64,000 nucleotides of DNA from Saprospiraceae bacterium (lineage in GTDB: Bacteria; Bacteroidota; Bacteroidia; Chitinophagales; Saprospiraceae), in NCBI GenBank assembly GCA_020631235.1, contig JAHDHQ010000009.1:39757-103756 (forward strand). Reading direction: 5' to 3'. Shown here one piece after another: positions 33,554 to 52,700 of this stretch. The position numbers were made by a program, and so were the translations under genes. Within the stretch, counting starts at the first letter, position 1, and each line of letters begins with the position of its first letter. Below the pieces are notes generated by a model, which searched no databases, had not been told where the DNA came from, and saw only the letters and a program-made list of their open reading frames with translations.

Positions 33554-33582
33554 CCATCCCAAAAACAGTAAATCTTTATAAA

Positions 33583-36500
33583 TTATTTTAGCATAACCAT
33601 TTTCTTAGTTGCGCTAAAACCATTTGTTTTCATTGTATAGTATAATACTCCTGCATTGTTGCCCAAGGTTTCTTGATCTAACAATATAGAGTGATTACCT
33701 TTTGTATATTCTCCATTAATTCTGCTTACCACTTTACCTGCTAAATCTGTAATAACGAACTCAACATTTGATTGAGTCGGTACTGCAAACTTAATTTCAG
33801 TTGTTCCATTAAATGGATTCGGAGTGTTCTGGAATAAAGCGAAAGTAAATGGTGATTCGTTGCCAAATTTGTCTGTAATTTGGATTGTTGGTGTCTGTAT
33901 ACTCATATCACCTGTGTATACCTCTGCTCTTGCCATTTCAGAATTTATGGATATATTACTATAGATTGATCCTTCATTTATTGCTAAAGCAACCACAGTA
34001 AATAATGGCGATTTAACATCCATTAATTTAGCTTCTACGGTATTGTAACTGATGGCTACTTTACCTTTGATAGCTTGATCATAGTTTACATTGTCTGCTT
34101 CTATCGCCATTTGTCCAGCTTGGACATCTACGATTTGTAACACACTTTCATTTGTAGTGAATGTACCTTGAAGACCTATAAGCTCACCTGCAGCCGTTGC
34201 ATATACTGGAATTTCAACTGTCGCTCCCTTATTAAACGTTTGATCAGCTACATTTAACGAATAATTACTTCGTGTATCTGCATCTTCTGATAATCCATTG
34301 ATAGTTGCTGTATTATTTACATCACCTACTTTCAATCCGATAAAATCAATGTCCATGTCAGCTGATAAGTTTGCTATATTATATGTTTCATCAAATGATT
34401 CTATCAATGGATTCGTAGCATCAATAAATGAGAAACCTTTATCCACAAATCTCCAAGACTTATTATTAGGGAATGCAGATTCTATCTCTAAGATTACCTT
34501 TCTTACATCTGATAAATCTTGAGCAGTTACAGTTTCATCATTATTAATATCCGCAGCTATAATCTTATACGGTGAATCTAAATCACTGATCCCTAAGATG
34601 TGTCTCTGTATGTGTACGATATCTAAAGTAGATACACCATTTAAGTATTCATCTTCCTTTCCTGGCGCAACAATATATGTGCTTCCTTCATCCATTTCTG
34701 GGAAAGCGTACATTCCTGACTCATCGGTCATATCATTAATATCAGCTCCATTTAAAGCAACCATTACTTCTTCCATCATTTCTTCATTCTCTGTAGCAAC
34801 GTTTCCTCCAATGGCAAATCTTGAACCAGGTCCCATTTCAGGACAAGCGTTCATATTGTCTTGAACATCAAGCATTGTCTCACAGTATGATTGTAACAAT
34901 GTTCCATCAGGCAACTCTACGGTTGCCCAAATCTCTACAAGCACATCTGGTTCAACATGCTCACACCCGAATGTGAAGTTTATTTCTTCAACATTTGAAG
35001 AGAAAGACAAATGTACTTCATCATAGCATGGGTGGTAGCTTCCTGCATCAAAATCTGTTGCCCATAATTCCACCATTCCAAAATCTACAGTACCGTCATT
35101 ATCTTCATCAATCGGCATTAAATCAACAGCCAATCCATTCAAACAATAAGGTGTTGGAAGTTTACAGTTTTGAATGACAAACGGTTGAATACATGTTTCC
35201 ACATTTCCACATTTGTCAGTAAAAGACCAAATTACACAGTGTTCACCTATCGGATAATTACCACTTGCATCAGCAGCAGGACCTGTACCAGAGTATGTAG
35301 TTTCTAAGTCTCCGTCGAAAGAGCCATCGCAATCAAGATCTATTTGGGCAGTCCAAGCTAGATTTTCTGGTAAGGTACAGTCATCCGTAGCTGATTTTGT
35401 TAATTCAATATATCCTTCAGCACATGCAGCATCGTAAGTACATGCAAATACTTCATCACAATTATCGTCCAATACTGGGTCTACTGTATTGTGTACTTTT
35501 ATCACTTGTACATCTGAATCAGTTATTGGATCTCCATCACTGTCTAACTGACACCAATCGATGACTGTCCAAGTTCTTAATATTTTAAAGCATGCTTCTC
35601 CACTAGCATTATTAAAGTAAAATACTTCATCATAATAGTTTGAACCTAACAGGTCACATTGATCATCATTAAACTGAGGGTAACCTGTCGCATCAGGATC
35701 TAATGACTCTATAGTACTGCACTCGTATACTGTTGTATCAAGTGGCCAAATGATATCATCCCAATCAAACGGGTTAGAATTGTGGAAATAAATGTATTGT
35801 TTACAAGAATCTTGTCTTCCAAAATCATCTGTAGCTACAAATGATCTAATTAAATTTCCAACATTACACTGATTAAGTTCATTAACCATTGAAGTTTCAA
35901 CATCTGCTCCACAGTTATCAACTACTGTTGCTTCTCCAAAATCTTCATTTAAATGCTCTTCATCCCAGTATGTATCACACTCTACGGTTACATTCTCAGG
36001 ACAAGTTATCACAGGAGCAAGTTTGTCTTGAACATCAACGGTAACCATACAATCATTGTAGTTACCATAGTAATCGACTGCTCTAAAAACAACCATTTGT
36101 TCTTCACCTATATCTTCACAACAGAAGACAACAGCGCTACTGAAAGTACAAGGATCAGTTACTTCCATTACGTATTTACCTAATAAAGTCTCTCCGTGTA
36201 CATTAAACCATTCGCCATCAGCTCCTACTTGGCCAAATCTTCCTTCTAATGCATCAGGGTTTCCTGCTGCCCAATTATAATAGTTAGGAGTATATCCATC
36301 ATGATTGCTAAATATATCATCACAATTTTCATCTGTTAAATCGAAGTAATATGCACTTCCACCTACTGCATCGAAAACAAATTGATTTTCTTCTGCATTA
36401 TCTATTTTTAATAAGTTTCCTCCCATTGCATGTGCTAAATCATATGCGTGATACCATGTATGATCTTTATCAGACAAGTAATATAGACTACCTTCATGTT

Positions 36501-38082
36501 CACCCAACAAAGTCATATCTGGGTAATACGGAGTATGACAATCACAATTGTCAGTATTCATTCTTCTTACTAAAAACTTATTGAGTTTGCAATCATCGTG
36601 TGACCCATCGTCAAACGTTTCTGCATATACTTTTGCTTCACCAGTACTTGTTAATGAAGCTACTGTAAATTGATCACAAACTGCCGTTGGTGCAGTGTCA
36701 TCAATCACATCAATAGTGTATGTACATTCCGAAGAGTTATAACATTCATCATACACTGTCAGCGTTATTTCATTAAGTCCCATGGCCAAAACCAATGGAT
36801 CTGTTCCATCATAATCTTGAATCGATCCTCCTGGATAAGTATAATCGACTCTGAAGTTTTCCCCACAGTTATCAGTTATTTCTGGAGTTTCTGGAAAATA
36901 CTCCGCAGCACAATCTACCATTCCATAAGGTGATTCCATCTGGTAACCGTGTACATTAGTACTGATTGTAGTGTATCCTACACATTGCTCTAAATCAGGA
37001 CAAGTAAATGTTGGAGCTTCTTTATCTTTAATTTCAATAATTTGAATGCATAATTTTACAATTTCTTCACCGCACCACCATTCTCTAATTTCCCAGCGTC
37101 TCATAATTTTTCTAATACAACCTATAACTGGCAACTCTGTATCATTATAAAACACACCAATATTGCAATAGAAATCAGGGTTTGGCCATAAAGGAATTCC
37201 ATTATACATAGGTATACCTGTTTCCGTTTCTCCTGGATCAAATTCACCGTCGCCATCAATATCTACCCAAGGATCAGGGTAACCATCGCCATTTATATCC
37301 CACAATCCATCTGAATCTGTATCTAATACTCCATCATCATTTGTGTCAGTATCAAATAAAATTCCAGTTTGTCCAGGCCACCATTTACCATCACAAGAAA
37401 TTGCCTCATCTTCAGCATTTAAATAGTTTAATGGACAAACGATTAGACTCGTATCTATTCTCTCTAAGCTATAAGTAATAGTACATTGCTCTGCTTCATT
37501 ACCGAACTGGTCAAATGCAGTATATATTCTTGTTACTTCTTTAACATAATCTGGATGACAATTTAAAGGATTAATATCCTCACTTAATAACACAGGATCT
37601 ACCTCCCCTTCACAATCCATATAAACCGGACCTTCGAAAGTGGAAAAATCAACACAAGATAGAATAGAGTCGTTGCAACTTTCTATCATTGGTCCTAACT
37701 TGTCTTCAACAATAATGTCTCCCCAACAAGAATTACCCGAATTTGTGTCTAATACTTTTGCTACATGATTTGAACCTATGATAGATCCATCAATTAGTGG
37801 AAATCCATTAGGGCCAGCAGGAAATACAACTTCATTACCATAATGATCTTCAATGTGTACTTCAAAAACACCTAAAGGACAAGAAGCTCCTTCATCTTGA
37901 AGAATCATGTCCGGTGTAACTTCTGCTGTACAATCTGGATCAAGGGAAATTTGTGTTGTTCCATTACAAGCAAGAGAACATTGAGCAAGTGTTTGCTCTG
38001 AGGGTAGCAAGGTCAAAATGGCTGACAGCAATAGCGTCATACCCATCTTTAACCCACGAAAGGTTAAAAGATTGTTTTTCAT
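33583..38082 (-). CDS. Large T9SS type A secreted protein with C-type lectin-like, dockerin-like and cohesin-like modules
   Basis: 1499 aa. The signal peptide ends near SEQTLAQC. Cys-rich HYR-like modules fill the first two thirds. Residues about 240-280 hold a Ca-binding thrombospondin type 3-like stretch (DTNDDGVLDTDSDGLWDING). Residues about 524-647 look like a C-type lectin domain (HTWYHAYDLAHAMGGNLLKI, YNWAAGNPD, GEWFNV). About 1100-1140 resembles a carboxypeptidase-regulatory beta domain. About 1142-1200 is dockerin-like (STLDIVHIQRHILG, DINNDETVTAQDLSDVRK), and about 1274-1400 is cohesin-like. The C-terminus (FALFQNTPNPFNGTTEIKF onward, KKMVMLK end) is a type A sorting domain. It is exported through the T9SS and probably anchored at the surface or released. 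A structural or adhesive role is inferred. Paralogue of the 2177-aa gene upstream. Confidence 0.9.
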   Translation of the reverse strand: MKNNLLTFRGLKMGMTLLLSAILTLLPSEQTLAQCSLACNGTTQISLDPDCTAEVTPDMILQDEGASCPLGVFEVHIEDHYGNEVVFPAGPNGFPLIDGSIIGSNHVAKVLDTNSGNSCWGDIIVEDKLGPMIESCNDSILSCVDFSTFEGPVYMDCEGEVDPVLLSEDINPLNCHPDYVKEVTRIYTAFDQFGNEAEQCTITYSLERIDTSLIVCPLNYLNAEDEAISCDGKWWPGQTGILFDTDTNDDGVLDTDSDGLWDINGDGYPDPWVDIDGDGEFDPGETETGIPMYNGIPLWPNPDFYCNIGVFYNDTELPVIGCIRKIMRRWEIREWWCGEEIVKLCIQIIEIKDKEAPTFTCPDLEQCVGYTTISTNVHGYQMESPYGMVDCAAEYFPETPEITDNCGENFRVDYTYPGGSIQDYDGTDPLVLAMGLNEITLTVYDECYNSSECTYTIDVIDDTAPTAVCDQFTVASLTSTGEAKVYAETFDDGSHDDCKLNKFLVRRMNTDNCDCHTPYYPDMTLLGEHEGSLYYLSDKDHTWYHAYDLAHAMGGNLLKIDNAEENQFVFDAVGGSAYYFDLTDENCDDIFSNHDGYTPNYYNWAAGNPDALEGRFGQVGADGEWFNVHGETLLGKYVMEVTDPCTFSSAVVFCCEDIGEEQMVVFRAVDYYGNYNDCMVTVDVQDKLAPVITCPENVTVECDTYWDEEHLNEDFGEATVVDNCGADVETSMVNELNQCNVGNLIRSFVATDDFGRQDSCKQYIYFHNSNPFDWDDIIWPLDTTVYECSTIESLDPDATGYPQFNDDQCDLLGSNYYDEVFYFNNASGEACFKILRTWTVIDWCQLDSDGDPITDSDVQVIKVHNTVDPVLDDNCDEVFACTYDAACAEGYIELTKSATDDCTLPENLAWTAQIDLDCDGSFDGDLETTYSGTGPAADASGNYPIGEHCVIWSFTDKCGNVETCIQPFVIQNCKLPTPYCLNGLAVDLMPIDEDNDGTVDFGMVELWATDFDAGSYHPCYDEVHLSFSSNVEEINFTFGCEHVEPDVLVEIWATVELPDGTLLQSYCETMLDVQDNMNACPEMGPGSRFAIGGNVATENEEMMEEVMVALNGADINDMTDESGMYAFPEMDEGSTYIVAPGKEDEYLNGVSTLDIVHIQRHILGISDLDSPYKIIAADINNDETVTAQDLSDVRKVILEIESAFPNNKSWRFVDKGFSFIDATNPLIESFDETYNIANLSADMDIDFIGLKVGDVNNTATINGLSEDADTRSNYSLNVADQTFNKGATVEIPVYATAAGELIGLQGTFTTNESVLQIVDVQAGQMAIEADNVNYDQAIKGKVAISYNTVEAKLMDVKSPLFTVVALAINEGSIYSNISINSEMARAEVYTGDMSIQTPTIQITDKFGNESPFTFALFQNTPNPFNGTTEIKFAVPTQSNVEFVITDLAGKVVSRINGEYTKGNHSILLDQETLGNNAGVLYYTMKTNGFSATKKMVMLK

Positions 38083-38928
38083 AATAAGATCCTTTTAAAT
38101 TTTTATACTGTTTGGGATGCTCGTATCAACCAAATACAAAGCATAACCCTTTTCAATAATTAAATTGTTATTAAATTATCTAGGTTCGATAACTTCTATA
38201 GGTAGGTGAATTATTTAATATGTTAATTACTACATATTAACGTTATACAAATATATAATTAGTCTAATATGTTATGCTACCTATTTGTAGGTATTTTTAA
38301 AATAAATTGATCTTCTAAGTATTAAAAACAAATACGTACTCTCAAAACAATACACTGATTTACATTGAAACTATAAGAGTATCAGCTAAAACACTGACCC
38401 AAACAAATAGAGATATAGCCCTTCAATTATAGCTTTTAGTGAGTTTATCAAAGTTACTGGGGTAATAGTTTCAAAGTATTCTTAGTAACAGTATGTCAAC
38501 ATGTAATCTTCTGGCTACATATGTGATTAAAGAAAGGTATCCGTATGAATTAACTGTTTAATACCGAAGAGAATAAGGTCGATCAAGAATCAAAGCTTAG
38601 TTTAAAAACATTGTATAAGAATCTCCAACCGGGTAACATTAAACAACAAAATCTATAAACAATTAGCATTAATTAAGACTCAAAAGGATGGTAGCTGCTT
38701 GAAACTCCATAACCATCCGCTATTGTTTTGAATGCACTTATATCAGCAAGCCTGTAAGTATTAACCGCAAGAAGATCTAGATGTACTGTTGAACTTCAAT
38801 AATTAATCAGTGACTAAGTATTATTACCCAACTTAATATCGTCATTCTTTGCTAAAAGGTTATCCCACCCTTAGATGATTAATCATTACCAAAATCAATA
38901 CAATCAATATTATAGAGTATTTAAATAG
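38083..38928. other. Intergenic region between the two type A genes
   Basis: 846 bp without a supported gene. It contains the promoter-operator at 38248-38293 for the 1499-aa gene. A perfect 8-bp hairpin (TAATATGT-N8-ACATATTA, 38216-38239) sits at the expected 5' end of that transcript. Another inverted repeat (GGATGGT at 38686-38692, ACCATCC at 38712-38718) has no assigned role. The predicted leader is about 160 nt. From about 38300 to 38928 I see no coding frame, tRNA or known riboswitch. Confidence 0.7.
38248..38293 (-). promoter_or_regulatory. Promoter and palindromic operator of the 1499-aa gene
   Basis: TATATTTG (minus strand, 38248-38255) matches the TAnnTTTG -7 box. Exactly 22 bp upstream of it lies the perfect palindrome TACCTA-N4-TAGGTA (38278-38293), where a -33 TTG would be expected. 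The same box, spacing and palindrome occur upstream of the 124-aa/2177-aa genes. The palindrome centre would be near -43 from the start of transcription, a place typical of an activator. Confidence 0.75.
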
Positions 38929-38959
38929 AAAAAGCCCCCCTCCAAAATTGGAGAGAGGC
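38929..38959 (-). terminator. Intrinsic terminator of the 2177-aa gene
   Basis: GC-rich stem GCCTCTCTCCAA / TTGGAGGGGGGC on the minus strand with a T run after it (38929-38933). Two of the pairs are G-U only when read as minus-strand RNA, which fixes the orientation. It lies 36 bp past the stop at 38996. CATCCCAAAAAC (38960-38971) precedes it, as at 33555. Confidence 0.9.
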
Positions 38960-38995
38960 CATCCCAAAAACCGATTTTATCGAAATACCGAAGTA

Positions 38996-41900
38996 TTAGT
39001 CGATAAGAATCATTTTCTTAGTTGCAGTGAAGTCACCACTTTCAAGAGTATAGTAAAGAACACCTGATGCTCCTAACTCAGCTCTTTGTAAAGTAATTGT
39101 GTTCAATCCTGCAGTTGCATTATCGTTAACTACAGTTACAACCTTACCTGTTACATCGTATACTGTTAAAGTAGCCGCTGCAGCTGAAGGTACTGTGTAG
39201 TTTATCGCTGTTGTTTGATTGAAAGGGTTAGGCTCATTCTGAAGTAAAGTATAGCTTACTTCTCCTGTTCCTAATGTTACATTCATAGTTTCATAATCTG
39301 CATTGTATGCCTCAGCACCAGTTACAGCTGAACTAATAGTTACACCATCTAATACAGTTGTATTAGCAGTTGCTTTGAATGTCATTTCAAATAATACATC
39401 ATCAGTAGATATTGCTTCGATAGAGTTCCAAGAAACTGTTACTGTATTAGCATCTAATACTGCAAAGTTAGCTTCGTTCATTTCGATAGCTCCAGAAACA
39501 ACGTCTAATAACTCAACATTATTAGTGTTCATTGTGAACTGGTATCCAACGATATCTTCGAAATTAGCTGCTGTGAACTCAACAGTAAATTCTTCTCCAG
39601 CCGTAACTGCAGCATCCTCTACGATTAAGTTTAAGCTTGCATTTCTTGTATCTGCATCATCAGTTGCATTTAATACTACAGACTCATTAACATCACCAAT
39701 CTTCATTGCAACGAAATCCATTGCTAATTCATCCTGGCTTAACTGAGCAATGCTCAATAATTCGTCATAGTTAAATGCATTGTTGATTGTTAAGTTCTGG
39801 CTTGCATCAGCAAATCTCCAGCTATCGTTGCTAGGTAATTCACTGTATACATCTAGAATTAACTTTCTTAATTCAGATAAATCAAAAGCTGTAATAGCTT
39901 GATCATCATTTACATCGGCAGCGATCATCTTGTATGGACTAGTTAAATCAGCTAATCCTAAGATATGTCTCTGAATGATTACGATATCTAAAGTAGATAC
40001 ACCATTTAAGTAATCAACATCTTTAACAGCGTTGATTGCGTAGTCAGCATTGTTTAAGTGCTGTGTACCGTCATTAAACATACCATCAGCATCAGTCATG
40101 ATACTCATAGGGTAATCTGGTAATACTGAAGAGATAGTTACTTGAACATCCTCTACATCAGAACCAAACTCAGTTGCTACGTTACCAGCGATTCTAGAGT
40201 TTCCTCCTCCAGTCTCTTCACATGCTCCATTGTTATCTAGTAATCTGATTTCGATAGTACAGAAATCATAGTTTCCACACTCATCCCAAACATATATATC
40301 CTGCTCAATGATTCCATCCTCAGAAGACATTAAATCATCACAGTCAAATGTCTTAGATGTACATCTAGAATCAGCATTGTATAATGGGTTAGAATCTTCA
40401 GGAAGATCATCTTCTCCGAATGACCATCTTAATCTGTCATATGGAGTACAGTTATCGAAACTTCCTTGCTCGAAATCACATGCCCATAATTCTACATTAC
40501 CGAAAGGTGCTTGCATAACAGCAGTACTTACGTTTAAGCAGAATGGAGTTGGAGCTTTCTTGTCTTCAACAGTGAAGTAACTAGTGTGGCTTGTTACGTT
40601 TCCACATCCGTCACTTGCTTTCCATACAGCTCTGTGCTGGTATTTGCTACCTTCAACAATTTCAGGTAAAGTTAATCCCATAGTTGAACCTTGGTTCACT
40701 ACGTGATCACCTGGTGCTGTTGGCGGTACGTATAATTCGTTGATCGGTGTACCGAAGTTTTGGTCGAATGGAGACACATAACTACTGAATTCGTAGTCAA
40801 TTGTCCAGTCACCCCAAAGATCGATAAATACTTGCCACTTGATCCAAGCGCTCATACAATCGCTATCACCATCAGTTGCACTACCCCAAAGGTTAACTTC
40901 AGACTCACAACCATCAGTTCCAGATCCAGATCCACCTGCACCAGAACCTACAGCGATGCAAGTATCAGGAGCTACAACAATAGGATCTACATCATCGTAG
41001 AATTTCAATACTTGAGTATGAGTATAAGTACCAATCTCAATATCATCATCTGAACCTAAGATTCCGTCAGGACCTGGGTCATTATCGTATCTGCTATCTA
41101 TACACCAGTTGATTAGTGTCCAGTGCTTTAATACTTTGAAACAAGCAGGATCTCCTGACTCATTATTCTCATCTCCTTCTTCGAAGAAGAAAGTATCACA
41201 CTTAACGTTCCATCCGATTAGATCACAAGTTTCTGCCGGCCATGTTGGAGGCTCTACTTCGAAATCATCACAAACGATTTCATCATCATTTGGCCAATCA
41301 ATTAAGTCACCACAGTATGGCTGAGCTGCGTCAACACATCCTTTGTGCTCATATAATGATTCACCTGTAATAGGATCAAATTCTTCCAATGGTCCACCTG
41401 GCCATGTAGGATCCCAGCAGCTTTCCCACTCTACAGTGATAAACTGGTCACACTCATGATCGTACCAAGTAATAGCATCATCAGCAGTATTTAACACACC
41501 ATCAAGTCCAGCTTCTCTGCTTAATACGATATCCCAAGTTCTTCTGATAACACCTTCGTTACATACTGGATCGTATCCACCTAAAGGAGAATCATTCTTA
41601 ACTGCTACTTCGTAATGAGTACAAGTACCGTTAGCAAATCCTACACCCGTTTTAGATAGATCTTCTGGATCCCATCCACAACAAACTGTAACATCTGGAG
41701 GACAAACGATTGTTGGCCACAATTTATCTTCAACTCTTACATTAGCCCAAGTTTCATTGTAGTTATCATCCATTGTTCCAGGAATCATATCTGTACCATT
41801 ATCCCAAACTCTTAAGATAACTTGGTGCTCACCGAATGGCACTGGGTTACCTGTTGTAGGATCAGTATAAACATCAGTTAAATCATCACAACAGAACTTA

Positions 41901-44900
41901 ACATAAGCACCTCCGTCTGTATCGTTAGGATTATCAGACTCATCGCCATTGTTGTTATAAGTAACGTTATTGTTGTAACCATTTACTCCGTTATTTCCAC
42001 ACTGGTTAGCACCAGCAGGTCTTCTAATTTCGAATCTTACAGGACCACAATCTCCATCGTGTGAACCGTTATCAATACTTTCAGCGTATAATTTAGCTAC
42101 ACCTGTAGTATCATATCCACCAGAAGTTAATCCGATTACGATATCTTGCTTAGCGATAGGTGTTGGAGGAGTATCATCTACTACAGTAACTGTAATAGTA
42201 TCCAATCCAACATTACCACAACAATCTGTAGTTTCATAAATGTATTGGTGCTCACCTTTAGGTACACCAGTAGCAAAGTATGGAGCCATTCCGTCTCCGT
42301 TAACAGATCCAATTGTACCAGGACCACTTACCCAGTAATTAGATACTGTAGAACAATCATCATGTAAGTGCTCAGGAGCAGGGAACTGGAATGCAGCCTC
42401 ACAACCCCAAGGGTTAACACTTGCACCAAAATCGTTAGCTGTAATTTCTGGAGCAGTCTTATCAACAGACTTGATTAATTGTACGTAATCAATAGTTGAT
42501 GCAGTACACCAATCTAATACAGTCCATGTTCTGATAACTTTCTCATTACCTGGGCAATCAGAAGTACCATTCTCACAAGCTGGAATTACTTGATCAGCAT
42601 AAGTAACGTATAAGTTACAAATGTTGTTATCAATTGGCTGAGGGTGTACTGAGTTCTTAGCATTACATGAAGAGTTACAACCCCATGCAAAGTAGTAAGG
42701 ATATCCCATTGTTACACCTTCTTGGAATTCAATGATTCCAGCAGGACAATCTAAATCTGAATCTGGACAATCATCTATATCTGGTAAACCAGGAACATCC
42801 AAAGATCCATCACCAATGAAATCATAGATTCCATCCCAGTCAACATCAACAAAATCATCTAGTATTAAATCACCATCTGTATCGATACTGTCTTCCTGAA
42901 TTTCAACAAAGTTGTCGAAATAATCAGCAATATCTTGTGGAGAAGTACCCGTTCCACACGGTAAATAAATCAATGGTGGAGGTACGAACCAATCGCTTCC
43001 TAAACCATCAAAGCTTAATGGAGTAATTGTAATTGTCTGAACTACAGGGTCAGAAACATTACCACAAGCATCAGTACAAGTCCATGTTCTGATTACTTGA
43101 CCATTTTCACAGTCAGCATTGCTGTATGTGTCAACAAAGTCAAATGACTGACAATCACACTGATCAGCAGAAGCTAAGTAAGTTCCAACTGTATTAGGAT
43201 CAGAATCACAAGCAGTATCACCATCGTTAAAGTATACACTTAATTCGAATACTTCTGTTGCACCTGCAAACATGTCAGTTACATCAAAAGCAATACACCA
43301 CTCACCATTTAAGTTTTCTCCTTCGAAATCACCTAAAGATCCGTTTGCGTTTCCACAGAATCCTTCTGAATCCCATGTACCTCCTCCTTGGAAGTCAGCA
43401 CAAGAACACGGTAATTGTGGAGCATCATCATCAAACGTTAAGTCAGCAATACCTGTACCGAATGTCGGACAAGACCAAGTACCAAAAGCTCCTGGATCCC
43501 ATAAAGTAATTACTGTACCGTCTGGACTTGTAATTGTAAAAGTAGAGTTACCCCAAAGGATAGCAGCAAAAGATACATTAATATCAGTTACTGTTAAACA
43601 AGGAGAAGAAACCTCGAAACAGTACTCACCTACTGTGTTTTCAGCAAATACATCAGCAGTACCATCTTCTTCTTTAAGGATAATACCTTCAGATAAAGAA
43701 GCACCAACTGTTAATACATCATCTGGAATATCTTCAAAACATGTTACAGAGTAGTTAGAAACTGGGAAGCTAGGAGCTAACTTATCCTCAATAAGGAAAG
43801 TTCCCCAACAACAGTTTCCATTATTAGGATCACAAACTTCATATGTGTGCTCACCTTTAGGGTAAGTGATAGGAATTCCTCCTACGTTAGTAATCGCGTT
43901 AGCTTCAACACCAAACGGCCATACATTTACCATAAAGTCATCATAACACATATAAGGACCACCTTCTAAGAAATCATCAGCACCTAAAGCTACTTGACAA
44001 TTTTCATCCAAAGAGATGTTTACGTGATCGTTACAAGTTAAAGTAGATACTGGAGTATAACCAGCAATTACTTCAATATCAAAAGTACACTCAATAGGAG
44101 CGCCTAAACCATCTAAAGCAGGTGAACAGTCAACTGGGTTGATTGCAGCCCAAGTTACAGAAGTTACACCTTCAGGGAAACAACTTCCTGATAACAATGT
44201 AGTATCTACTTCACCAGCAGCATTTAAAGGCTGTAATTGTGGAGCTACTACATATTCGAAGTTACTTATTTCGAAGTTTACGTTACCAAAACCGTTCGCT
44301 GTGTTTCCTGCAAGGAATTCAACTGTTGGAGTTGGAGTCGCTTCACAATCGATGGTTGTAACTGGTAATGAACCAGCAGCAGGAGAACCTGCATCGCTAT
44401 CGATAGGTACCGAACCGTCAGGTAATGTTACTGTCCAATCAATCCATGGAGTACCATCACCAGCGCTAGCCGTATAATCAAAAGAGAAACTATCATCTAA
44501 CTGAGGAAGAGAGAAACCACATGGTGGCACAGCTCCTGGCTCAGGACAAGAAACAGGTAAAGCTACACTTGCAGTAGATGTAGTAGTTGGAGCAAAGAAA
44601 CCTACAGGACCTGGAGTAGTTAATGTTAACACACCACCAGCTACACCTGCAGTACCACCCATACCACCATCATCTAATGTGATAGCACCTAAAGCGTCTA
44701 AATCATCAAGTGTTAGTACAGCACCTTCACACGCACCTTCTAAAGCAACATCGTAAAAGATAGTTGCACAACACTCACCACCACCGATTACTTCAGTGAT
44801 TGTTTCTTCAGGACAAATTAAATTACACTCACAACAGTCAGTAGGATCGAAATCCACATCTAAAGGAGCGAAAGTTACTGTAACCGCTGAGATACAATGT

Positions 44901-45529
44901 GTATCTCCTCCAAAATTATCAGTCACAGTCAAAGACCATGCTCCATTTACATCGTCAGCAGGAAATGCAACTTGACCAGCCATACAAGTCAAACCTTCTG
45001 CAGGAGGAGGTATAACCATGTCATAAGGACCAGGATTCAAGCCATCAAAATCATCCTGATCAGCTCCTCCTGGAGCCCAAGAATAAGTTTCCACACCTGG
45101 TGGAACCTCATTAGGACCTAAATTGTCGCCACCTCCGACACCATCCATAAGAATGATATTCTGACCAGCTGGACCTACAAGAGCGACATCTAAATCACCC
45201 GCGAAAGATCCATCTGAAAAAGTGATATCAACTGAAGCTATAGTTACCGTTAATCCTAGAACAGGAGGAACCATTGCAGCATCCACTACAACAGATCCGT
45301 CTGGCGGACACGCTGCTTCAGGTAAATCAACACCAACTACACCAGCAACAGTAATAGGGATTCCCCCTACAATGTCACCACTTGAACCACTTATGCTTGT
45401 AGCACAATAAACATTTACATTACCATCTGGGTCTGTATCTGCACCGACTCCATCATCTGGAAACGCCTGTGCTGAAACCAATGAAATGGCTGCAAAAACG
45501 CAAAAAATACTTAATAAAATTTTCTTCAT
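38996..45529 (-). CDS. Very large T9SS type A secreted protein with P-domain-like, HYR-like, dockerin-like and cohesin-like modules
   Basis: 2177 aa. A clean signal peptide (LLSIFCVFAAISLVSAQ) is followed by a proprotein-convertase P-like beta-sandwich at about 50-230 (DVALVGPAGQNIILMDG, NGAWSLTVTDNFGGD). A second occurs at about 640-770 (STFTITSPDGTVITLWDPG, LNGEWCIAFDVTDMF). Many Cys-rich HYR-like modules follow. The C-terminal block parallels the 1499-aa protein: dockerin-like at about 1836-1895 (STLDIVIIQRHILGLADLTS, DVNDDQAITAFDLSELRK), cohesin-like at about 1960-2085, and a type A sorting domain at about 2095-2177 (YTLLQNEPNPFNQTTAINY, KKMILID). Exported by the T9SS. Role inferred as extracellular matrix or adhesin. 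It starts 12 bp after the 124-aa gene and shares its promoter. Confidence 0.91.
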   Translation of the reverse strand: MKKILLSIFCVFAAISLVSAQAFPDDGVGADTDPDGNVNVYCATSISGSSGDIVGGIPITVAGVVGVDLPEAACPPDGSVVVDAAMVPPVLGLTVTIASVDITFSDGSFAGDLDVALVGPAGQNIILMDGVGGGDNLGPNEVPPGVETYSWAPGGADQDDFDGLNPGPYDMVIPPPAEGLTCMAGQVAFPADDVNGAWSLTVTDNFGGDTHCISAVTVTFAPLDVDFDPTDCCECNLICPEETITEVIGGGECCATIFYDVALEGACEGAVLTLDDLDALGAITLDDGGMGGTAGVAGGVLTLTTPGPVGFFAPTTTSTASVALPVSCPEPGAVPPCGFSLPQLDDSFSFDYTASAGDGTPWIDWTVTLPDGSVPIDSDAGSPAAGSLPVTTIDCEATPTPTVEFLAGNTANGFGNVNFEISNFEYVVAPQLQPLNAAGEVDTTLLSGSCFPEGVTSVTWAAINPVDCSPALDGLGAPIECTFDIEVIAGYTPVSTLTCNDHVNISLDENCQVALGADDFLEGGPYMCYDDFMVNVWPFGVEANAITNVGGIPITYPKGEHTYEVCDPNNGNCCWGTFLIEDKLAPSFPVSNYSVTCFEDIPDDVLTVGASLSEGIILKEEDGTADVFAENTVGEYCFEVSSPCLTVTDINVSFAAILWGNSTFTITSPDGTVITLWDPGAFGTWSCPTFGTGIADLTFDDDAPQLPCSCADFQGGGTWDSEGFCGNANGSLGDFEGENLNGEWCIAFDVTDMFAGATEVFELSVYFNDGDTACDSDPNTVGTYLASADQCDCQSFDFVDTYSNADCENGQVIRTWTCTDACGNVSDPVVQTITITPLSFDGLGSDWFVPPPLIYLPCGTGTSPQDIADYFDNFVEIQEDSIDTDGDLILDDFVDVDWDGIYDFIGDGSLDVPGLPDIDDCPDSDLDCPAGIIEFQEGVTMGYPYYFAWGCNSSCNAKNSVHPQPIDNNICNLYVTYADQVIPACENGTSDCPGNEKVIRTWTVLDWCTASTIDYVQLIKSVDKTAPEITANDFGASVNPWGCEAAFQFPAPEHLHDDCSTVSNYWVSGPGTIGSVNGDGMAPYFATGVPKGEHQYIYETTDCCGNVGLDTITVTVVDDTPPTPIAKQDIVIGLTSGGYDTTGVAKLYAESIDNGSHDGDCGPVRFEIRRPAGANQCGNNGVNGYNNNVTYNNNGDESDNPNDTDGGAYVKFCCDDLTDVYTDPTTGNPVPFGEHQVILRVWDNGTDMIPGTMDDNYNETWANVRVEDKLWPTIVCPPDVTVCCGWDPEDLSKTGVGFANGTCTHYEVAVKNDSPLGGYDPVCNEGVIRRTWDIVLSREAGLDGVLNTADDAITWYDHECDQFITVEWESCWDPTWPGGPLEEFDPITGESLYEHKGCVDAAQPYCGDLIDWPNDDEIVCDDFEVEPPTWPAETCDLIGWNVKCDTFFFEEGDENNESGDPACFKVLKHWTLINWCIDSRYDNDPGPDGILGSDDDIEIGTYTHTQVLKFYDDVDPIVVAPDTCIAVGSGAGGSGSGTDGCESEVNLWGSATDGDSDCMSAWIKWQVFIDLWGDWTIDYEFSSYVSPFDQNFGTPINELYVPPTAPGDHVVNQGSTMGLTLPEIVEGSKYQHRAVWKASDGCGNVTSHTSYFTVEDKKAPTPFCLNVSTAVMQAPFGNVELWACDFEQGSFDNCTPYDRLRWSFGEDDLPEDSNPLYNADSRCTSKTFDCDDLMSSEDGIIEQDIYVWDECGNYDFCTIEIRLLDNNGACEETGGGNSRIAGNVATEFGSDVEDVQVTISSVLPDYPMSIMTDADGMFNDGTQHLNNADYAINAVKDVDYLNGVSTLDIVIIQRHILGLADLTSPYKMIAADVNDDQAITAFDLSELRKLILDVYSELPSNDSWRFADASQNLTINNAFNYDELLSIAQLSQDELAMDFVAMKIGDVNESVVLNATDDADTRNASLNLIVEDAAVTAGEEFTVEFTAANFEDIVGYQFTMNTNNVELLDVVSGAIEMNEANFAVLDANTVTVSWNSIEAISTDDVLFEMTFKATANTTVLDGVTISSAVTGAEAYNADYETMNVTLGTGEVSYTLLQNEPNPFNQTTAINYTVPSAAAATLTVYDVTGKVVTVVNDNATAGLNTITLQRAELGASGVLYYTLESGDFTATKKMILID

Positions 45530-45541
45530 GAGATTGAATTG

Positions 45542-45916
45542 TTAGTTTGAGATCAATGAGTCAACATATTCCAATGCTCCGAGTGCTTGCGTGTACTCCG
45601 GATACTGGGAATATTGAGTTAATTGGTTTCTAGTTTCGATAACACCTGTTTCTGCATCTTTTGCAGCCATCACGTTATCTAAGACCATAGTCGCTATTCG
45701 AAGCTTCATTGCAACGTCAGCTTGAGAATCACCACCAGTAGTCGCAGTAGCTGCTCCTACTCCTGGATCATTGGGTACTGACACAACATCACCTTCTAAG
45801 CTTTTCACTTCATTTTTCAATGTAGTCATTGCAAGATCTAGCCCCATATAAGACTGGGCAGAAATTCCAACGCTCATCAAGGCAAACAAAGCCACGAAAA
45901 AGAACTTAATTTTCAT
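45542..45916 (-). CDS. Small secreted protein of unknown function, first gene before the 2177-aa protein
   Basis: 124 aa. A signal peptide (FFFVALFALMSVGISAQ) is followed by an Ala/Thr/Gly-rich spacer (about residues 50-65) between two helical parts (LDLAMTTLKNEVKSLEG and DVAMKLRIATMVLDNVMAAK). No family recognised, no cysteine and no sorting domain, so it is likely periplasmic. 12 bp separate it from the giant gene, so they are co-transcribed. This position suggests a partner, such as a chaperone or accessory subunit, but that is a guess. Confidence 0.8.
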   Translation of the reverse strand: MKIKFFFVALFALMSVGISAQSYMGLDLAMTTLKNEVKSLEGDVVSVPNDPGVGAATATTGGDSQADVAMKLRIATMVLDNVMAAKDAETGVIETRNQLTQYSQYPEYTQALGALEYVDSLISN

Positions 45917-46406
45917 GAGATTGAGATTTTAAGTTTAATTAAATAATAAATTGTTAGTTCGATTTTAGCTAAATAAAATTATGGCATAGGACCCCAACAT
46001 CGTCATGTCAGACCTATTCCCTAAAAGGAATTAAGACTTAACTAATACAAGAAAATGCAATTGGCAAGCAAAGCGAAGTAGTGTACTGTTCGATTTTAGC
46101 TATAAGAGAGGATTTTCGTACACAACCTCGAGTTTTGATTTCGTCTTTAAAAGCTTAGCTTGTTGGTTTATTGCCTTTTTTATACTTAGTGATTCGCCTA
46201 TGTAACTACAAAGTCTATATACGTTATACAAACCTGTAAAACATCGTACAAATATAATCCTAACATCTACAATATTATTACCTAGTTGTAGGTATTTTGA
46301 TTATATGTTTTTTTTCTATATGTTCCACTATAATTATGAAAAAGGAAAGATAAGTGCCTGTTAATCAGTATGTTTAAACATCGAAAAACATAATTCTAAG
46401 CCAAGA
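45917..46406. other. Long leader and promoter region upstream of the 124-aa gene
   Basis: 490 bp. It holds the promoter-operator at 46249-46294, which predicts a leader of roughly 325 nt. A 15-nt direct repeat GTTCGATTTTAGCTA occurs at 45957-45971 and 46088-46102, both within the leader. No coding frame or known riboswitch was seen. The 112 bp from 46295 to 46406 form the 3' side of the lipoprotein array; no strong terminator was found there. Confidence 0.65.
46249..46294 (-). promoter_or_regulatory. Promoter and palindromic operator of the 124-aa/2177-aa genes
   Basis: TATATTTG (46249-46256, minus strand) lies 22 bp from the perfect palindrome TACCTA-GTTG-TAGGTA (46279-46294). Box sequence and spacing are identical to those at 38248-38293; only the 4-nt centre differs by one base. 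Confidence 0.75.
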
Positions 46407-49400
46407 TTACTGATAATCATACAAGGCTAGCTGGATAGGTCCTTTATTGTTGCCTACAATAATACCCTTCTGATTAGAGCCAAGAGAAATACGCTCCAAA
46501 CTATTAGTTATTTGGTCGCAGAAAAGGCCTACCTCCAGAGGGTCAGCTAGTGTTAATTTTGCATTTTTATCACCATAAAACAAAAAGCTTTCTCCTGCGT
46601 CACTCAAACTCATACTGGGGTTAGTAAACTGCACATTGCCTACACAAAAAGCATCCAAAAAACCATCTTTATTAAAATCTTCTAGCATGATCTGTTTTAT
46701 ACTTGATCGTTGTGTGATCTCTGGTAATTCTTTTACATTAAATGTTAAATCACCCTTATTAAGGGCCATTAAATGCGCAAAGCAATTGGCATCATACGTT
46801 TTTGCATTTAATAAGACTTGATCGCTGATTAATTCTTCTACAGGCATCGCGGCTACTGTGCTATAACCTTGCTGCCTTATTTTGTTTTTGATATATGGAA
46901 ACCACTCACTTAAAGTTTCTAAATCTTGCAAGGGAATATATCGATCATTATAGAGTTGGCTTAATATGACTTCTTGATCATTATTTAAACTCATATCGCC
47001 AGCATAAAGTCTCAGTGGATGTTCTGTCGTCGCTTCAAAGTCCAAGTTCTCACCTATATTGCCAAAAATCATATCCATATCACCGTCACCATCAATATCT
47101 CCAACTGCTACCGATTGCCACCAACCTTTATAAGCTTCTAAACCTGTATTTTTTTGCCTTGTAAATTTCTCATCCTCTCTAAGAAATATAGCTGGAGCAT
47201 CCCATTCGGAACAAATAATTAGGTCTTTCTTCTCGTCGCTATTTACGTCTATGTAGGCAACATCTGTTATAAAGTGCGGCAACTCTTCAAAGGCAAACCA
47301 TTTTGCAATTTGGTTTACATAGGGACCTCCAGTGTGCATTAACAAATAAGAGTCTGCTCTCTCTCCATATCTTTTTGGTTTATTTCGTCCAGCAACAAAC
47401 AAGTCCTGCAGTCCATCACCATTAAAATCATCGGCAATAATGTTTGTAGAAGCCGAACGAATGTCAGGCAATACTCCATCCACTCTCAGCATTTGGCCAC
47501 CACCATTATTAAAGTAAAGTCTATCTTGAAGAAGGCTATCATGATCCACAAGCATATCTCCACCTGAAGCCACATATAAATCTAGCCGACCGTCATTATT
47601 GTAGTCAAAAAAGGTGGCTCCAGTGTCATTATAAGCTATATCATCATAAAATACTTGATTTTTTAGTGTTCTAAAGTTATTCTCTTTTTGTACAATTACT
47701 TTTCCTGTGATATTTTCAGCCCCTCCCATATAAAAATCATCAAAACCATCATTATCCACATCACCTACTGCTAATGTGGGACCATCATAACTTACTTGAT
47801 AAGGTGCATTTAGGTTTGTGTTTTTTAAAGAAACATTTGCCTGGACATGGGCATAATTGTATGTATCTATTCGGTCTGTTAAATCGAGAAAAACACCTGG
47901 TTCTACTACGATTTTTCGTGGAGTTCTATTGATGGATATTTCTTTAGACAAAACATGGTGCTTATTTGACTCGATATTGGAAAACACATTCAAGGCACCA
48001 TCCAGATAATTAATTTTGATGCTATCTACGCGCTTCTCCTTTCTTAGACCAAAATGTAATCGTCTGCTCGAACTAGATCTAAAGCCTCTATCAAACTGGA
48101 ATTCTTGATATTGTGCTAATTTTCCAGCGTACACCGTCACCTTTGCATGCATAACACTAGTAACTCGTGTAGTATCCTTAAGCTGGACGGAAATCCAGTT
48201 TCCACTTTTGCTTTTATTTTCTAGAACTGTTGCTGTGGTGCCAATGTTGTTTACGATAATATCAAGATCACCATCATTATCTAAATCTGCATAAGCAGCT
48301 CCTCTGCTGTCTTTTTTAGGGCTTGATTTGCTCAAGATATCTTGCTTGAGCATTTGTAAACCATCCATATTTTTAAACCATACGTTATTAGCGGCTTCTG
48401 CTTTCGCTTCTTTAAGATGATTATAAGCTTCTATAGAATCTAATGGTGATCCTTTTTTGCGTTCGAGCTCTTCTCTTTGACTAATGTATTCTAAATGGTT
48501 TATATTCTGCGTCAAACCATTAGTTACAAAAACATCTTTTAGTCCATCGTTATCAAAATCGGCAATCAGTGGAGACCAGCTAAACCCTGTACTAGCTAGT
48601 CCAGCATAATTAGCCAAATTTGAGAGTTTACTTTTTTTATTAACGAGCATGGTATTGGTTTTATATTGGAATGGAAAACCAAAACCACTGTGCAACATAA
48701 AAAACTCCTCCGTATTTATATTCTTGCGATATAGATTTTTCTTAAACGGATCCATGGTGACTTGATCCATAACTAAGATATCTACACTTAAGTCATTATT
48801 TAGATCATTAATATCCACACCTTTACTGTCTTTAGAGATTTGTGTAAATAGTGTGTTATTCATCTGATCGAGTGAACCTTTACGATTATTGTAATAAACA
48901 TAGTCAGGTACAAAAAAATCATTGCTTACAAACAAATCTAGCCATCCATCTTTGTTAATATCCGAAGCTACTGCACCTCTTCCAAAAACCAGTGAAGAGA
49001 CATTCTTTTCCTTTGATTGATTATTAAAAACACCTTCATTATTTTCAAAATACATACTATACATATATTTTGATCTTTCTTTATTTATGCCATTATTTAT
49101 GCTTCTGATAAAATGCTTTATGTCCTTTCCTATGGACCTAAGCATAGTATTGGAGATGTATAAGTCTAAGTCATTATCTCTATCAAAATCTGCAAACACA
49201 CAATGGGTAGAAAGGCTGGCAATGTCTAAACCATAGGCTGAAGCCGACTCTTTAAAGGTTCCATCTTTTTGATTAATATAAAGGTCATTAGTCATGTCTT
49301 CCATATCAAAACCAGGCCCTCCATTGCAAACGTAAATATCTAACCATCCATCACCGTTGATATCAATGATGCTTGCGCTATTAGACCATTTTTTGGATTC

Positions 49401-49763
49401 TAAGCCTGCAAAACGGGTGACATCTTCAAATTGTAGATTTCCTTTATTTACATATAGACGATTACTTACATCATTACCCGTAAAAAAGACATCTTCTAAG
49501 CCATCATTATTATAGTCAATAATGCTCACTCCACCACCATGTTGTAATGGGTCAAAATAGAGGATATTTCTATCCCTTGATTCTTCATATTTATTTATGA
49601 AATCAATACCCGTGGAACTTGGATCCAGTGCAACAAAATTAAAGGATTCTGAAGTGTCATTTTTAGCCACATTGGACAACACCTCTCGATCATCATCACA
49701 AGAAATCAATATACAAGAAATCAATAAAATAAAGATTGCGTATTTTATCCAGTCACCCATCAT
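46407..49763 (-). CDS. VCBS/FG-GAP repeat lipoprotein with ASPIC/UnbV domain (divergent fifth copy)
   Basis: 1118 aa. A lipoprotein signal ends at LLISCILISC (Cys22). The first ATG is followed at once by a second; either could be used. Asp-rich FG-GAP/VCBS loops such as IDINGDGWLDIYVCNGG and ADFDNDGLKDVFVTNG build two predicted beta-propellers. Between them (about residues 530-620) lies an ASPIC/UnbV-like domain (FDRGFRSSSSRRLHFGL, DSIKINYLDG). It lacks the RGKECSTEQMPF segment of its four paralogues and has an altered SMDV region, so it is the most divergent copy. Calcium-binding surface lipoprotein inferred; ligand unknown. Last gene of the array, 12 bp after the fourth. Confidence 0.88.
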   Translation of the reverse strand: MMGDWIKYAIFILLISCILISCDDDREVLSNVAKNDTSESFNFVALDPSSTGIDFINKYEESRDRNILYFDPLQHGGGVSIIDYNNDGLEDVFFTGNDVSNRLYVNKGNLQFEDVTRFAGLESKKWSNSASIIDINGDGWLDIYVCNGGPGFDMEDMTNDLYINQKDGTFKESASAYGLDIASLSTHCVFADFDRDNDLDLYISNTMLRSIGKDIKHFIRSINNGINKERSKYMYSMYFENNEGVFNNQSKEKNVSSLVFGRGAVASDINKDGWLDLFVSNDFFVPDYVYYNNRKGSLDQMNNTLFTQISKDSKGVDINDLNNDLSVDILVMDQVTMDPFKKNLYRKNINTEEFFMLHSGFGFPFQYKTNTMLVNKKSKLSNLANYAGLASTGFSWSPLIADFDNDGLKDVFVTNGLTQNINHLEYISQREELERKKGSPLDSIEAYNHLKEAKAEAANNVWFKNMDGLQMLKQDILSKSSPKKDSRGAAYADLDNDGDLDIIVNNIGTTATVLENKSKSGNWISVQLKDTTRVTSVMHAKVTVYAGKLAQYQEFQFDRGFRSSSSRRLHFGLRKEKRVDSIKINYLDGALNVFSNIESNKHHVLSKEISINRTPRKIVVEPGVFLDLTDRIDTYNYAHVQANVSLKNTNLNAPYQVSYDGPTLAVGDVDNDGFDDFYMGGAENITGKVIVQKENNFRTLKNQVFYDDIAYNDTGATFFDYNNDGRLDLYVASGGDMLVDHDSLLQDRLYFNNGGGQMLRVDGVLPDIRSASTNIIADDFNGDGLQDLFVAGRNKPKRYGERADSYLLMHTGGPYVNQIAKWFAFEELPHFITDVAYIDVNSDEKKDLIICSEWDAPAIFLREDEKFTRQKNTGLEAYKGWWQSVAVGDIDGDGDMDMIFGNIGENLDFEATTEHPLRLYAGDMSLNNDQEVILSQLYNDRYIPLQDLETLSEWFPYIKNKIRQQGYSTVAAMPVEELISDQVLLNAKTYDANCFAHLMALNKGDLTFNVKELPEITQRSSIKQIMLEDFNKDGFLDAFCVGNVQFTNPSMSLSDAGESFLFYGDKNAKLTLADPLEVGLFCDQITNSLERISLGSNQKGIIVGNNKGPIQLALYDYQ

Positions 49764-49775
49764 CCTCTTTATGTA

Positions 49776-52700
49776 TTATTTTAAAGCCAATAATAATTGG
49801 ACACGTTCATTATTATTGGCTACAATTATGCCTTTTTGATTACCACCTAAGTTGATTTCGACCATATCAGTTACGTTTCCATTACACAATACTCCAGCAA
49901 AATCAATATTAGATTTAGAATTAAATGTGCAGCTTCCCTGGCCTAACAATAATAATCCATTCCCTGCATCATAAGCTGTCGTTTCAGGCTCGGTTTCTAA
50001 AATGTTGCCCGCACAGAACACATCCATATATCCATCAAAATTCACGTCGGAAAGCACCATGGATTTAATGGGTGCCCATTGTGCGTGAACGGGTAATTTA
50101 CGAAGTTCAAAACCAAGTTCGCCTTTGTTTTCTGCAATATAGTGAGCGAAAGTATTTACACTAAATTGATCCAATTGTTCTAGGTTTTCTTCCCCTAGTA
50201 TTTCATTAATGGAAGCATTTGCAAAAGATGAGTAACTCTCAAATTTTTCTTTCAAAAAAGGCATTTGTTCCGTGCTACATTCTTTACCTCTGACAGGCAC
50301 TGTTTTATTTTGGTATTTTTTAGTTAGTACGATGTCATGAGATCCATTCCCATCAACATCACCGGCATACAAGCCTAAAGGTTTCTCCTCAGAAGGATGA
50401 AATTTGTTGTTTTCTCCCAAATTACCCAAAATTAAATCTAAATCGCCATCTCTATCAAAATCATGTGCAGCAACAGATTGCCACCATCCAGATTTATTTT
50501 TAAAACTACTAACCTCTTGTTTTGTAAATGAATCTCCGGTCCTTGTAAACAATGCGGGTTCGTCCCATTCCGAAACGAATAAAAAATCTTTCTTGGTGTC
50601 GCCATTAAAATCTTCATATATAATCCCCGTAATCATTCCTGGCAATTCCTGGACATTAAAATAATCTTCTATTTGATTTTCAAATTGCTGATTATTCTGA
50701 ATCAGCAGATAGGAACTTGCTTTTTGCGGGTAAGCTCCTGGATTATTTCTTCCACCGACAAAGAGATCTATTTGTCCATCATCATTAAAATCCCCTGAAA
50801 TAATTTTAGCTGTAGAGGATGTGATTTTAGGCAAGGCCTTGATAGCTCGGGTAAATTTTCCTTCACCTTTATTTATGTAAAGTCTGTCTTGTAATAAATC
50901 AGGATTTTTAACATCTCCTCCCCCTCCACTGGCCACATATAAATCCATCAAGCCATCCTTATTGACATCGAAAAAATGTGCACCTAAATCTTCATATTTA
51001 GCGTCATTTAAGAAGACGTTATTTTTAGTAGTTTCGAATGAATTTGTTTTTTGACTGGCCAAAATTCCCGCATATCCTGCTGATCCGCCCAAATAAAAAT
51101 CTTCTAATCTATCGCCATTAATATCAGCTTTTGCTAAACAAGGGCCGAGGTTTGAATATTTGTGAGGCAATAAAACTTCTACATTAAAATCATTAAAATT
51201 TTTCTCTTTGTGCGAAAAGTTAAATCCTTTTGCTTGATGGGTTACATCCATTAATGGTGCCCTAAGCTGTTCTTGTTTGCTAGCTTGGGTTGCTCTATTT
51301 GTTTTATCGAGAACATGTAGTTGATTAACAGCCAGATTCTCAAATGTTTGTTCAGTACCATCTAAATAATTGATAATGACTTTATCTACTTTGACTTTAT
51401 CACGAAGGCCAAAATGTAATCTTTGGCCCATGGAAGAATTATAGCCCCTTGTAAAGTAATATTCTTGATACTGCACTAAATCGTCAGCAAAAACTTTGAC
51501 TTTGGCATTTAAAACTGAAGCAGGGTTTGTTTTATTTTCTAATCGAATAGACACATAATTTTGTCGACCGTTTGACAAGTTTTCTAGTAAGCTAATTTTG
51601 TCTTTTAGATTGTTGCATACAAGATCCAAATCACCATCTAAATCGAGATCACTGAAAGCGGCACCACTTGAAAATGTAGGGCTAAAAACTCCTGAATTTT
51701 GTTCGATTTTTTGAAAATCTTTCCCTTCTATATTTTTAAAAACTATATTTTTTATAGGATTTGATGGTGTGTTTTGAAGATGGTCAAACCATTCAAGTTT
51801 ACTTAAAGTCCTACCCAACTCTTTTTCTTTGGCTTCCTTTTTAAGTCGATAATCATTGTTTAAAAGTTCTCTTAAATATCCGGTGGATACAAAGTAATCT
51901 TTCCATCCGTCATTATCTATATCAAATAATAAAGGGGCCCAACTCCACTCTGTTTGAGAGACTCCTAGATAATGAGATATATCAGAAAAATGACCTTTAC
52001 CGACATTGACAAAAAAAGAATTAAACATATACTGTTCTGGAAAATTTAACTCCTCTTTTAAGTAATTAAACATGTCTACATCCATGGAGCGCATAAGTGT
52101 TTTATTACGCACATGGTCTGAAGGAGTCATATCTAAGACAGCTAAGTCAATGAGCTGATCATTATTAAAATCATTAGCGTCAATTCCCATCGAATAAAAA
52201 GGCATATGGCTTAATAATCGATCTCCAACATGATTAAATTTGCCTGTCTTATCGTTTTGATAGTAAAAATCCGGAATAAAAAAATCGTTTGTAGCATATA
52301 TATCTAACCAACCGTCATTATTTAGATCAGCGATGCAAGCACCAAGTCCAAAACCATAATCATGCACACCTTTTTCTTTGCTTTTTAACACAAAAAAACC
52401 ATCCACGTTTTCGTAAAACATGTTAGTCATCATATTAAGCTCCTCTTTAGGAATTTCTGATAATATTATTTTCAGAAATTTAGGTATATTTTGTTCAATG
52501 TTGCGTTGAAGATGATTAATCAAGTAAAGATCCAAATCCCCATCATTATCAAAATCAGCAAAATTAGCTTGCATAGATTTACTGGCAATATCTAATCCAT
52601 ACTTGCTGGCTGATTCAGTAAAGCTCAGGTTTTTATTATTTATGTAAAGCTGATTTGTCAGTGCCATTTTTGAATCTGAGGGCCCACCATTGCAAACGTA

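Follow-up and report, generated by a model that had tools for sequence, protein, structure and literature searches.

What brings two operons for giant exported proteins of a Saprospiraceae bacterium under what looks like the same promoter? In the 64,000-nucleotide stretch analyzed here (the window; contig JAHDHQ010000009.1, positions 39,757 to 103,756), gene 1, which encodes a 1499-aa giant, and operon 2, the second gene of which encodes a 2177-aa giant, are each preceded by a TACCTA-N4-TAGGTA palindrome located 22 bp upstream of a -7 box. An initial annotation of this DNA had proposed that a dedicated regulator controls both. Comparison with the genomes of relatives indicates that the two sites are quite probably operators of a NarL-type class II activator that would switch on the giants, the most likely regulator being the product of a gene (L199) located outside the window.

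The exact palindromes, TACCTATTTGTAGGTA at 38278-38293 and TACCTAGTTGTAGGTA at 46279-46294, and their 22-bp distance to TATATTTG were borne out at both loci, on the minus strand. In minus-strand orientation, both promoters showed the same order: an A-tract, TACCTACAA[A/C]TAGGTA, 22 bp and TATATTTG, which has the TAnnTTTG form of the -7 box of Bacteroidota sigma-A promoters. Each site consists of inverted heptamers with TACC outer ends and 2 bp between them (7-2-7 layout). At promoter 1 the palindrome TACCTACAAATAGGTA (38278..38293), whose core TACC-N8-GGTA is kept in two congeners (G001 and G002), is abutted on the upstream, TACC side by the A-tract (38294..38298, delimited from 38 aligned promoters) and is followed by the spacer (38256..38277), which holds AACATATTA, common to the congeners, and by the box (38248..38255). 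At promoter 2 the palindrome TACCTACAACTAGGTA (46279..46294) is exact in G001 and has one mismatch in G002; its A-tract, delimited from the promoter alignment, lies at 46295..46298 and likewise abuts TACC on the upstream side, the spacer (46257..46278) is diverged among the congeners with element and box retained, and the box lies at 46249..46256. Taking the box position of -12 to -5 given in excerpts of PMC9723704, transcription would start near 38243 and 46244, leaving leaders of about 161 and 328 nt, respectively.

The exact palindrome occurred only twice in the 4,185,856 bases of the genome, both times in the window, so the remark that no other copy was noticed held. The backwards control also gave two matches, and in 60 genomes, including this one, 39 forward and 36 reversed-control matches were counted. 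The bare palindrome was thus rejected as evidence, its frequency being at chance level. Near-miss sites with two or three mismatches (nine besides the two of the window) were also discarded; they lay mostly inside open reading frames (ORFs), and two preceded unrelated genes (L009 and L014). The genome scan proposed in the initial annotation gave a different result for the composite. TACC-N8-GGTA followed by TANNTTTG at a spacing of 10-34 matched twice genome-wide, both times in the window and both times at 22, with six matches in the reversed control, and when the family consensus derived below was scanned with up to three mismatches, the two window sites were the sole matches, with no mismatch in either and none found in the control. 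It is the combination of palindrome, fixed spacing and box that is remarkable and beyond chance, not the palindrome by itself. A terminator or RNA hairpin was rejected, since the element keeps a fixed spacing on the upstream side of the -7 box and 31000-47000, operon 2 leader included, gave no Rfam match at the family cut-offs.

The same architecture was found across the family, for which a set of 398 genomes, including this one, was used. The pattern TACCYA-N4-TRGGTA-N{10,34}-TANNTTTG gave 57 matches in 50 genomes, 16 of them at N22, 16 at N23 and 25 spread over the other 23 spacings, against 28 (counted) in the reversed control. The element was also sought independently of any motif, in 60 regions upstream of giants resembling gene 1 that were picked by protein similarity, from the matches listed, where the match reached the C-terminus; the set includes gene 1 of the congeners and three paralogues from the same genome, and one region has only 300 bases. 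The exact core was present in 13 of these regions, 11 at N22, one at N21 and one at N23, with none at the other 37 spacings (5-44) and none in the reversed control. Two of the 13 are gene 1 of the congeners, and the 47 regions lacking the exact core include the three paralogues from the same genome. When 38 distinct N22 promoters were aligned, the consensus was AAAAA-TACC-NNN-WW-NN-GGGTA-N22-TATMTTTG, A accounting for 74-100% at the five positions of the A-tract. The palindromes first described are present, but after the protein-picked upstream set the exact TACCTA/TAGGTA was replaced as motif by TACC-N8-GGTA plus A-tract, the full element being A-tract, TACC-N8-GGTA, N22 (or N23) and TATMTTTG. 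This consensus matched in 153 of the 398 genomes, against one match in the reversed control, and 120 of the 150 matches listed were at N22, 26 at N23 and four elsewhere, although 21 spacings (12-32) were allowed.

Bacteroidota sigma-A promoters carry a TTG element at -33. The spacers of the 38 aligned promoters had no conserved TTG, which would fit an activator-dependent promoter and agrees with the earlier suggestion that the palindrome takes the place of the -33 element. For F. psychrophilum, the excerpts of PMC9723704 give positions -12 to -5 for the TAnnTTTG box, and together with a 22-bp spacer this would put the center of the palindrome at -42.5. The class II position near -43 that had been predicted is consistent with this value and with the N22 or N23 spacing of 146 of the 150 matches listed; given the assumed position of the box, the center falls within -41.5 to -44 at a fixed spacing.

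According to the part of PMC4549865 consulted, E. coli NarL uses 7-2-7 sites, of which TACCCCTAAAGGGGTA is an engineered one, activates napF from -40 to -49 and yeaR from -38 to -47, and represses as well as activates. One site found here (L144, TACCCCGAAAGGGGTA) is a single base off this engineered site. The likeness to the NarL 7-2-7 site, the center at -42.5 and the NarL/VraR-like regulator described below make a class II NarL-type activator the best reading. A regulator that instead blocks RNA polymerase from a repressor operator would suit a site at -42.5, which overlaps the -33 region, and NarL itself can repress. We nevertheless regard repression as quite unlikely: the distance to the box hardly departs from 22-23 bp, the spacer has no conserved -33 TTG, and the 7-2-7 sites from which NarL, according to these excerpts, activates napF and yeaR are placed almost identically.

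CRP/FNR-type activators typically use class II sites near -41.5, so that the position could also suggest a dimeric activator of that or another family. The half-site and the 16-bp layout, however, match NarL as it is described in the excerpts, and the gene to which the element is linked is of the NarL type; binding by an activator of another family is very improbable.

Both genes and both elements were found in the congeners G001 and G002, with a spacing of 22 at all of them. In both congeners the palindrome of gene 1 has TGGGTA as its right half, and that of operon 2 has TAGTTA in G002. At the gene 1 promoter, conservation among the congeners begins abruptly at AAAATACCTA, and the operon 2 spacer is mostly diverged, with element and box retained. 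In G107 and G164, gene 1 with its element is likewise syntenic with ruvX and def. These data bear on the possibility that the two promoters resemble each other because a giant module was duplicated together with its promoter, the palindrome being functionless. The giants are indeed paralogous (37% identity in the C-terminal segment), but by eye the promoters have little in common apart from the box, the A-tract and the element itself, the element outlasts its surroundings across species, and it also precedes differently built operons (cohesin-SprB-PorP); such an origin is extremely unlikely. The leaders are conserved as well. Between this genome and G002 the gene 1 leader (38083-38243, minus strand) is almost the same, G001 also conserves it well, and ACCTACCTATAGA is among the conserved parts. 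The long leader of operon 2 (45917-46244, minus strand) is conserved among three congeners and contains TAGCTAAAATCGAA twice (45958-45971 and 46089-46102), both copies being kept.

The regulator that would act as NarL-type activator at these sites is most likely the product of L199 (G000:C18:132671-133333), a gene about 29 kb past the window end and ahead of a paralogue of gene 1. The protein has a receiver followed by a GerE/LuxR helix-turn-helix (HTH) domain (Pfam Response_reg 1.3e-18, GerE 1.3e-20), and the regulator profile aligned over nearly the full length of VraR and NarL (1a04) with an E-value of 8e-39. When 53 genomes (G000-G036 plus 16 chosen for their sites) were searched, one orthologous group stood out, with E-values of 1.1e-39 or lower in 35 genomes, the next match being at 3.3e-33. 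In 28 aligned orthologues (L199-L228 without L218 and L226) the recognition helix was nearly invariant. The receivers, in turn, are drifting, the phospho-Asp being replaced by E, N or A in six of the 28 by eye.

In relatives the element is linked to this regulator gene. In 16 of the 30 regulator loci a perfect core with N21-23 lies directly downstream of the regulator gene on the same strand, a count made without a reversed control; the remaining loci scored at most 11/14, except L218, which was outside the scoring and had no core listed anywhere. The next gene was readable in 12 of the 16 loci and looked by eye like an exported cohesin protein or a giant; the only one of these run through Pfam (L214) matched cohesin. 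A second collection, of named GTDB contigs, comprised the best 80 of 356 regulator relatives, mostly from Saprospiraceae metagenome-assembled genomes, with taxa overlapping those of the 30 loci. In these 80 loci (860,582 bp) 17 cores were found at N22 and one at N23, against three at the other 38 spacings together and none in the reversed control; all 18 are on the same strand, 30-408 bp past the end of the regulator match, and fall in L276-L308 (18 of 33 loci). In 37 of the 80 loci, 32 of them among the 47 of L229-L275, a giant whose C-terminus resembles that of gene 1 was encoded downstream on the same strand. Thus the NarL/LuxR-type layout noted in the initial annotation was supported both by the 7-2-7 form of the family core, judged against the excerpted NarL sites, and by a NarL-type gene directly upstream in 16/30 and 18/80 loci. 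A GerE-domain hidden Markov model (HMM) also detected a NarL-type regulator just upstream of the giant in three of the 60 protein-picked regions (L147, L180 and L185), in the site-picked L108 and in the window's own genome (L125).

Regulator, element and giants also tend to occur in the same genomes. Among G001-G036, 30 genomes are rich in proteins resembling gene 1 (best E-value 1e-40 or better) and six are poor, the thresholds having been chosen after the results were seen. The regulator orthologue was found in 22 of the 30 rich and none of the six poor genomes (Fisher p 0.0015), and a consensus site at any allowed spacing in 21 of the 30 and none of the six (p 0.0026). Site and regulator were both present in 16 genomes, the site alone in five, the regulator alone in six and neither in nine (Fisher p 0.03).

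The genes behind the two promoters of the window, all on the minus strand, encode exported proteins. The gene 1 product (33583..38082) has HYR domains, a weak C-type-lectin match, a dockerin, a predicted cohesin-like fold and a type A tail for the type IX secretion system (T9SS). Operon 2 starts with a 124-aa secreted protein (45542..45916; homologues with 44% identity in G002 and 48% in G001), followed by the 2177-aa giant (38996..45529) with dockerin and T9SS type A tail. The description of the loci as paralogous thus holds for the giants, with operon 2 beginning instead with the small secreted protein. The C-terminal sorting domain TIGR04183 scored 28.9 bits in gene 1 and 42.7 bits in the 2177-aa giant (cut-off 23). 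Dockerin (PF00404, cut-off 22.9) scored 23.4 and 39.0 bits, respectively, when the C-terminal parts were searched, and 21.6 (below the cut-off) and 24.6 bits in a scan of the whole proteins. Pfam cohesin had no match in the window giants. When the segment of gene 1 after the dockerin was modeled, all 50 PDB matches shown were cohesin-containing entries (Foldseek best E 1.5e-7, probability 1.00; target-normalized template-modeling score mostly 0.3-0.6), suggesting a cohesin-like fold; the model is the best of five, with a mean predicted local distance difference test score of 83 against 59-70 for the other four. No catalytic module was detected in the window giants at E 0.001. Small secreted proteins are also encoded first after the element in L105 (G302) and L106 (G349), with 28% and 17% identity to the 124-aa protein, and in L331 (G104) a short secreted protein likewise precedes the giant.

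In relatives the element frequently precedes proteins of the same types. Twelve of 27 N22/N23 sites outside the genus (L098-L124) precede, by eye, HYR/dockerin giants, operons of a small secreted protein and a giant, or related short exported proteins, and several of the 27 look like chance matches or end early. Such giants or cohesin operons follow 14 of 30 consensus sites (L322-L351, by eye). In L325, L332, L339 and L350 the element is followed by a cohesin T9SS type A protein, a T9SS type B giant and a PorP/SprF-like protein; HMM searches support part of these cohesin-SprB-PorP operons, SprB repeats and PorP/SprF having been tested in L325. The idea of a dedicated regulator of cohesin/dockerin type A proteins is supported, with corrections. 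Dockerins and type A tails are present in both giants by HMM, with a predicted cohesin-like fold in gene 1, such proteins follow 12/27 and 14/30 sampled sites, and a NarL-type candidate can be named; on the other hand, other genes are also included, and the candidate gene lies outside the window with no adjacent site in its own genome.

Several results weigh against a NarL-type activator of the L199 group acting on these proteins. Among the 27 sites are some before feoAB, imelysin-like operons and an LuxR HTH gene (by eye), and of the 30 consensus sites ten precede no such gene, three precede short proteins and three were unreadable. The paralogues of gene 1 elsewhere in the genome have no site. 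No core was found by the L199 gene itself, nor beside the regulator in any of the 47 loci of L229-L275, mostly the closest regulator matches, so that in these cases the link would rest on orthology; between regulator and giant in the window's own genome, the best candidate element scored 9/14 and was rejected. A consensus site is absent from six of the 22 regulator-positive genomes, and five of the 21 site-positive ones (G002, G012, G020, G026 and G033) have no clear orthologue; in G002 a giant paralogue is at a contig edge, so that the missing regulator may be an assembly gap. The L199 receiver keeps the phospho-Asp and the Lys, but its acidic pair reads IADQQ (by eye), which makes a phosphorylation switch doubtful. 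Finally, the counts from the 30 regulator loci, the 80 named loci and the consensus scan are not independent, because the genome samples overlap.

The five genomes with a site and no clear orthologue also raise the possibility that the operator is bound by another NarL/LuxR-type paralogue, or shared by several; in one of them, G020, the site lies some 70 bp past the end of a divergent regulator (31% identity). The window's genome has nine GerE-domain matches, and GerE proteins of other groups were found by HMM near the pattern-picked palindromes L018, L027, L081, L118 and L138, with two more in G021, so the acting regulator could be one of the other paralogues. Genome G021 has just two exact palindromes, one on either side of a distinct NarL-type system (L136, G021:C9:6000-15589), which consists of a 73-aa LuxR HTH protein, a NarL-type regulator 36% identical to L199 and a 7TMR-DISM histidine kinase; this arrangement looks like autoregulation. 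Since the element repeatedly adjoins the L199 orthologous group (16/30 and 18/80 loci), the sole group surveyed in this way, we consider another or a shared regulator rather unlikely. Palindromes of the TACCTA type at a spacing of 23 were also seen before feoAB in L119 and L120 (two genomes of genus g64) and before imelysin-like operons in L115 and L116 (genus g17; names by eye), and these possibly belong to a separate, iron-related regulator.

We therefore return to the L199-type activator, for which the following mechanism can be proposed. A dimer of a NarL/FixJ-type response regulator would bind TACC-N8-GGTA near -42.5, in the place of the missing -33 element and possibly with the aid of the A-tract directly upstream, and in response to some signal would recruit the housekeeping sigma factor and RNA polymerase to the -7 box TATATTTG. 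The dimer would most likely be formed by the L199 product, many Saprospiraceae orthologues of which adjoin the same element. It would turn on the T9SS-exported dockerin giants, of which gene 1 may also carry a cohesin-like fold, and in relatives the cohesin-SprB-PorP/SprF operons as well, and the target proteins together could form a cohesin-dockerin surface assembly. A bolder version, which we put forward tentatively and consider possible rather than probable, is that a NarL-type regulator whose receiver is drifting from phosphorylation while its HTH and its operator stay nearly invariant throughout the family is the dedicated master switch of a T9SS-exported cohesin-dockerin surface assembly, in which proteins with both modules could polymerize and SprB/PorP-SprF could provide the anchor.

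Elsewhere in the window, two 152-aa ORFs (507-980 and 2622-3095) are each preceded by the identical 16-mer CAGCTAACTGTAGGTA, the two copies being 2115 bp apart, in an apparent tandem duplication. On the minus strand of 46407-63915 lie five lipoprotein-like genes that look alike and encode 1108-1128 aa; a 180-aa ORF separates the third from the fourth. FG-GAP repeats and a UnbV_ASPIC domain were found in the single gene tested (46407-49763).

In the open-access literature searched, no report joined TAnnTTTG, an activator and a palindrome, none joined cohesin/dockerin with a LuxR response regulator, and none combined any three of Saprospiraceae, response regulator, T9SS and HYR domain. The regulon proposed from these comparisons is new and its kind is known. 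For a family of mostly uncultured environmental bacteria, a regulator, its site, the promoter geometry and many targets are predicted here from sequence. Direct tests of how T9SS-exported cohesin/dockerin surface proteins are regulated thus become possible, and A-tract, TACC-N8-GGTA, N22 and TATMTTTG provide a precise query for further members. A further question is what would drive a NarL-type activator whose receiver pocket is eroding.

Among known systems, E. coli NarL, as described for napF and yeaR in the excerpts of PMC4549865, shares the receiver and GerE/LuxR HTH, the 16-bp TACC...GGTA palindrome and a similar position. Unlike NarL, which serves nitrate respiration, the system described here has a Bacteroidota -7 box, a conserved A-tract and surface proteins as predicted targets, and the Saprospiraceae regulator mostly has no adjacent kinase gene and shows drifting receiver residues. 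LuxR regulators of the CsgD type, which govern the extracellular matrix, combine an LuxR HTH with an atypical receiver and control extracellular structural proteins, namely curli. The regulator proposed here would follow the same general plan, with T9SS-exported dockerin/cohesin proteins as predicted targets instead of curli. Type I dockerin HMM matches, cohesin HMM matches in the operons of relatives and the predicted cohesin-like fold of gene 1 recall the cellulosomes of Clostridia; in contrast to these, the window giants have no catalytic module, are of the T9SS export type, and in gene 1 would unite a dockerin and a cohesin-like fold in one protein. The window system does not count as a cellulosome, dockerin-bearing catalytic enzymes not having been found in its giants. 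Finally, the relatives in which the element precedes a cohesin protein, a type B giant with SprB repeats and PorP/SprF resemble the SprB/PorP-SprF operons of T9SS adhesins, whereas the two operons of the window are built without SprB and PorP/SprF genes.

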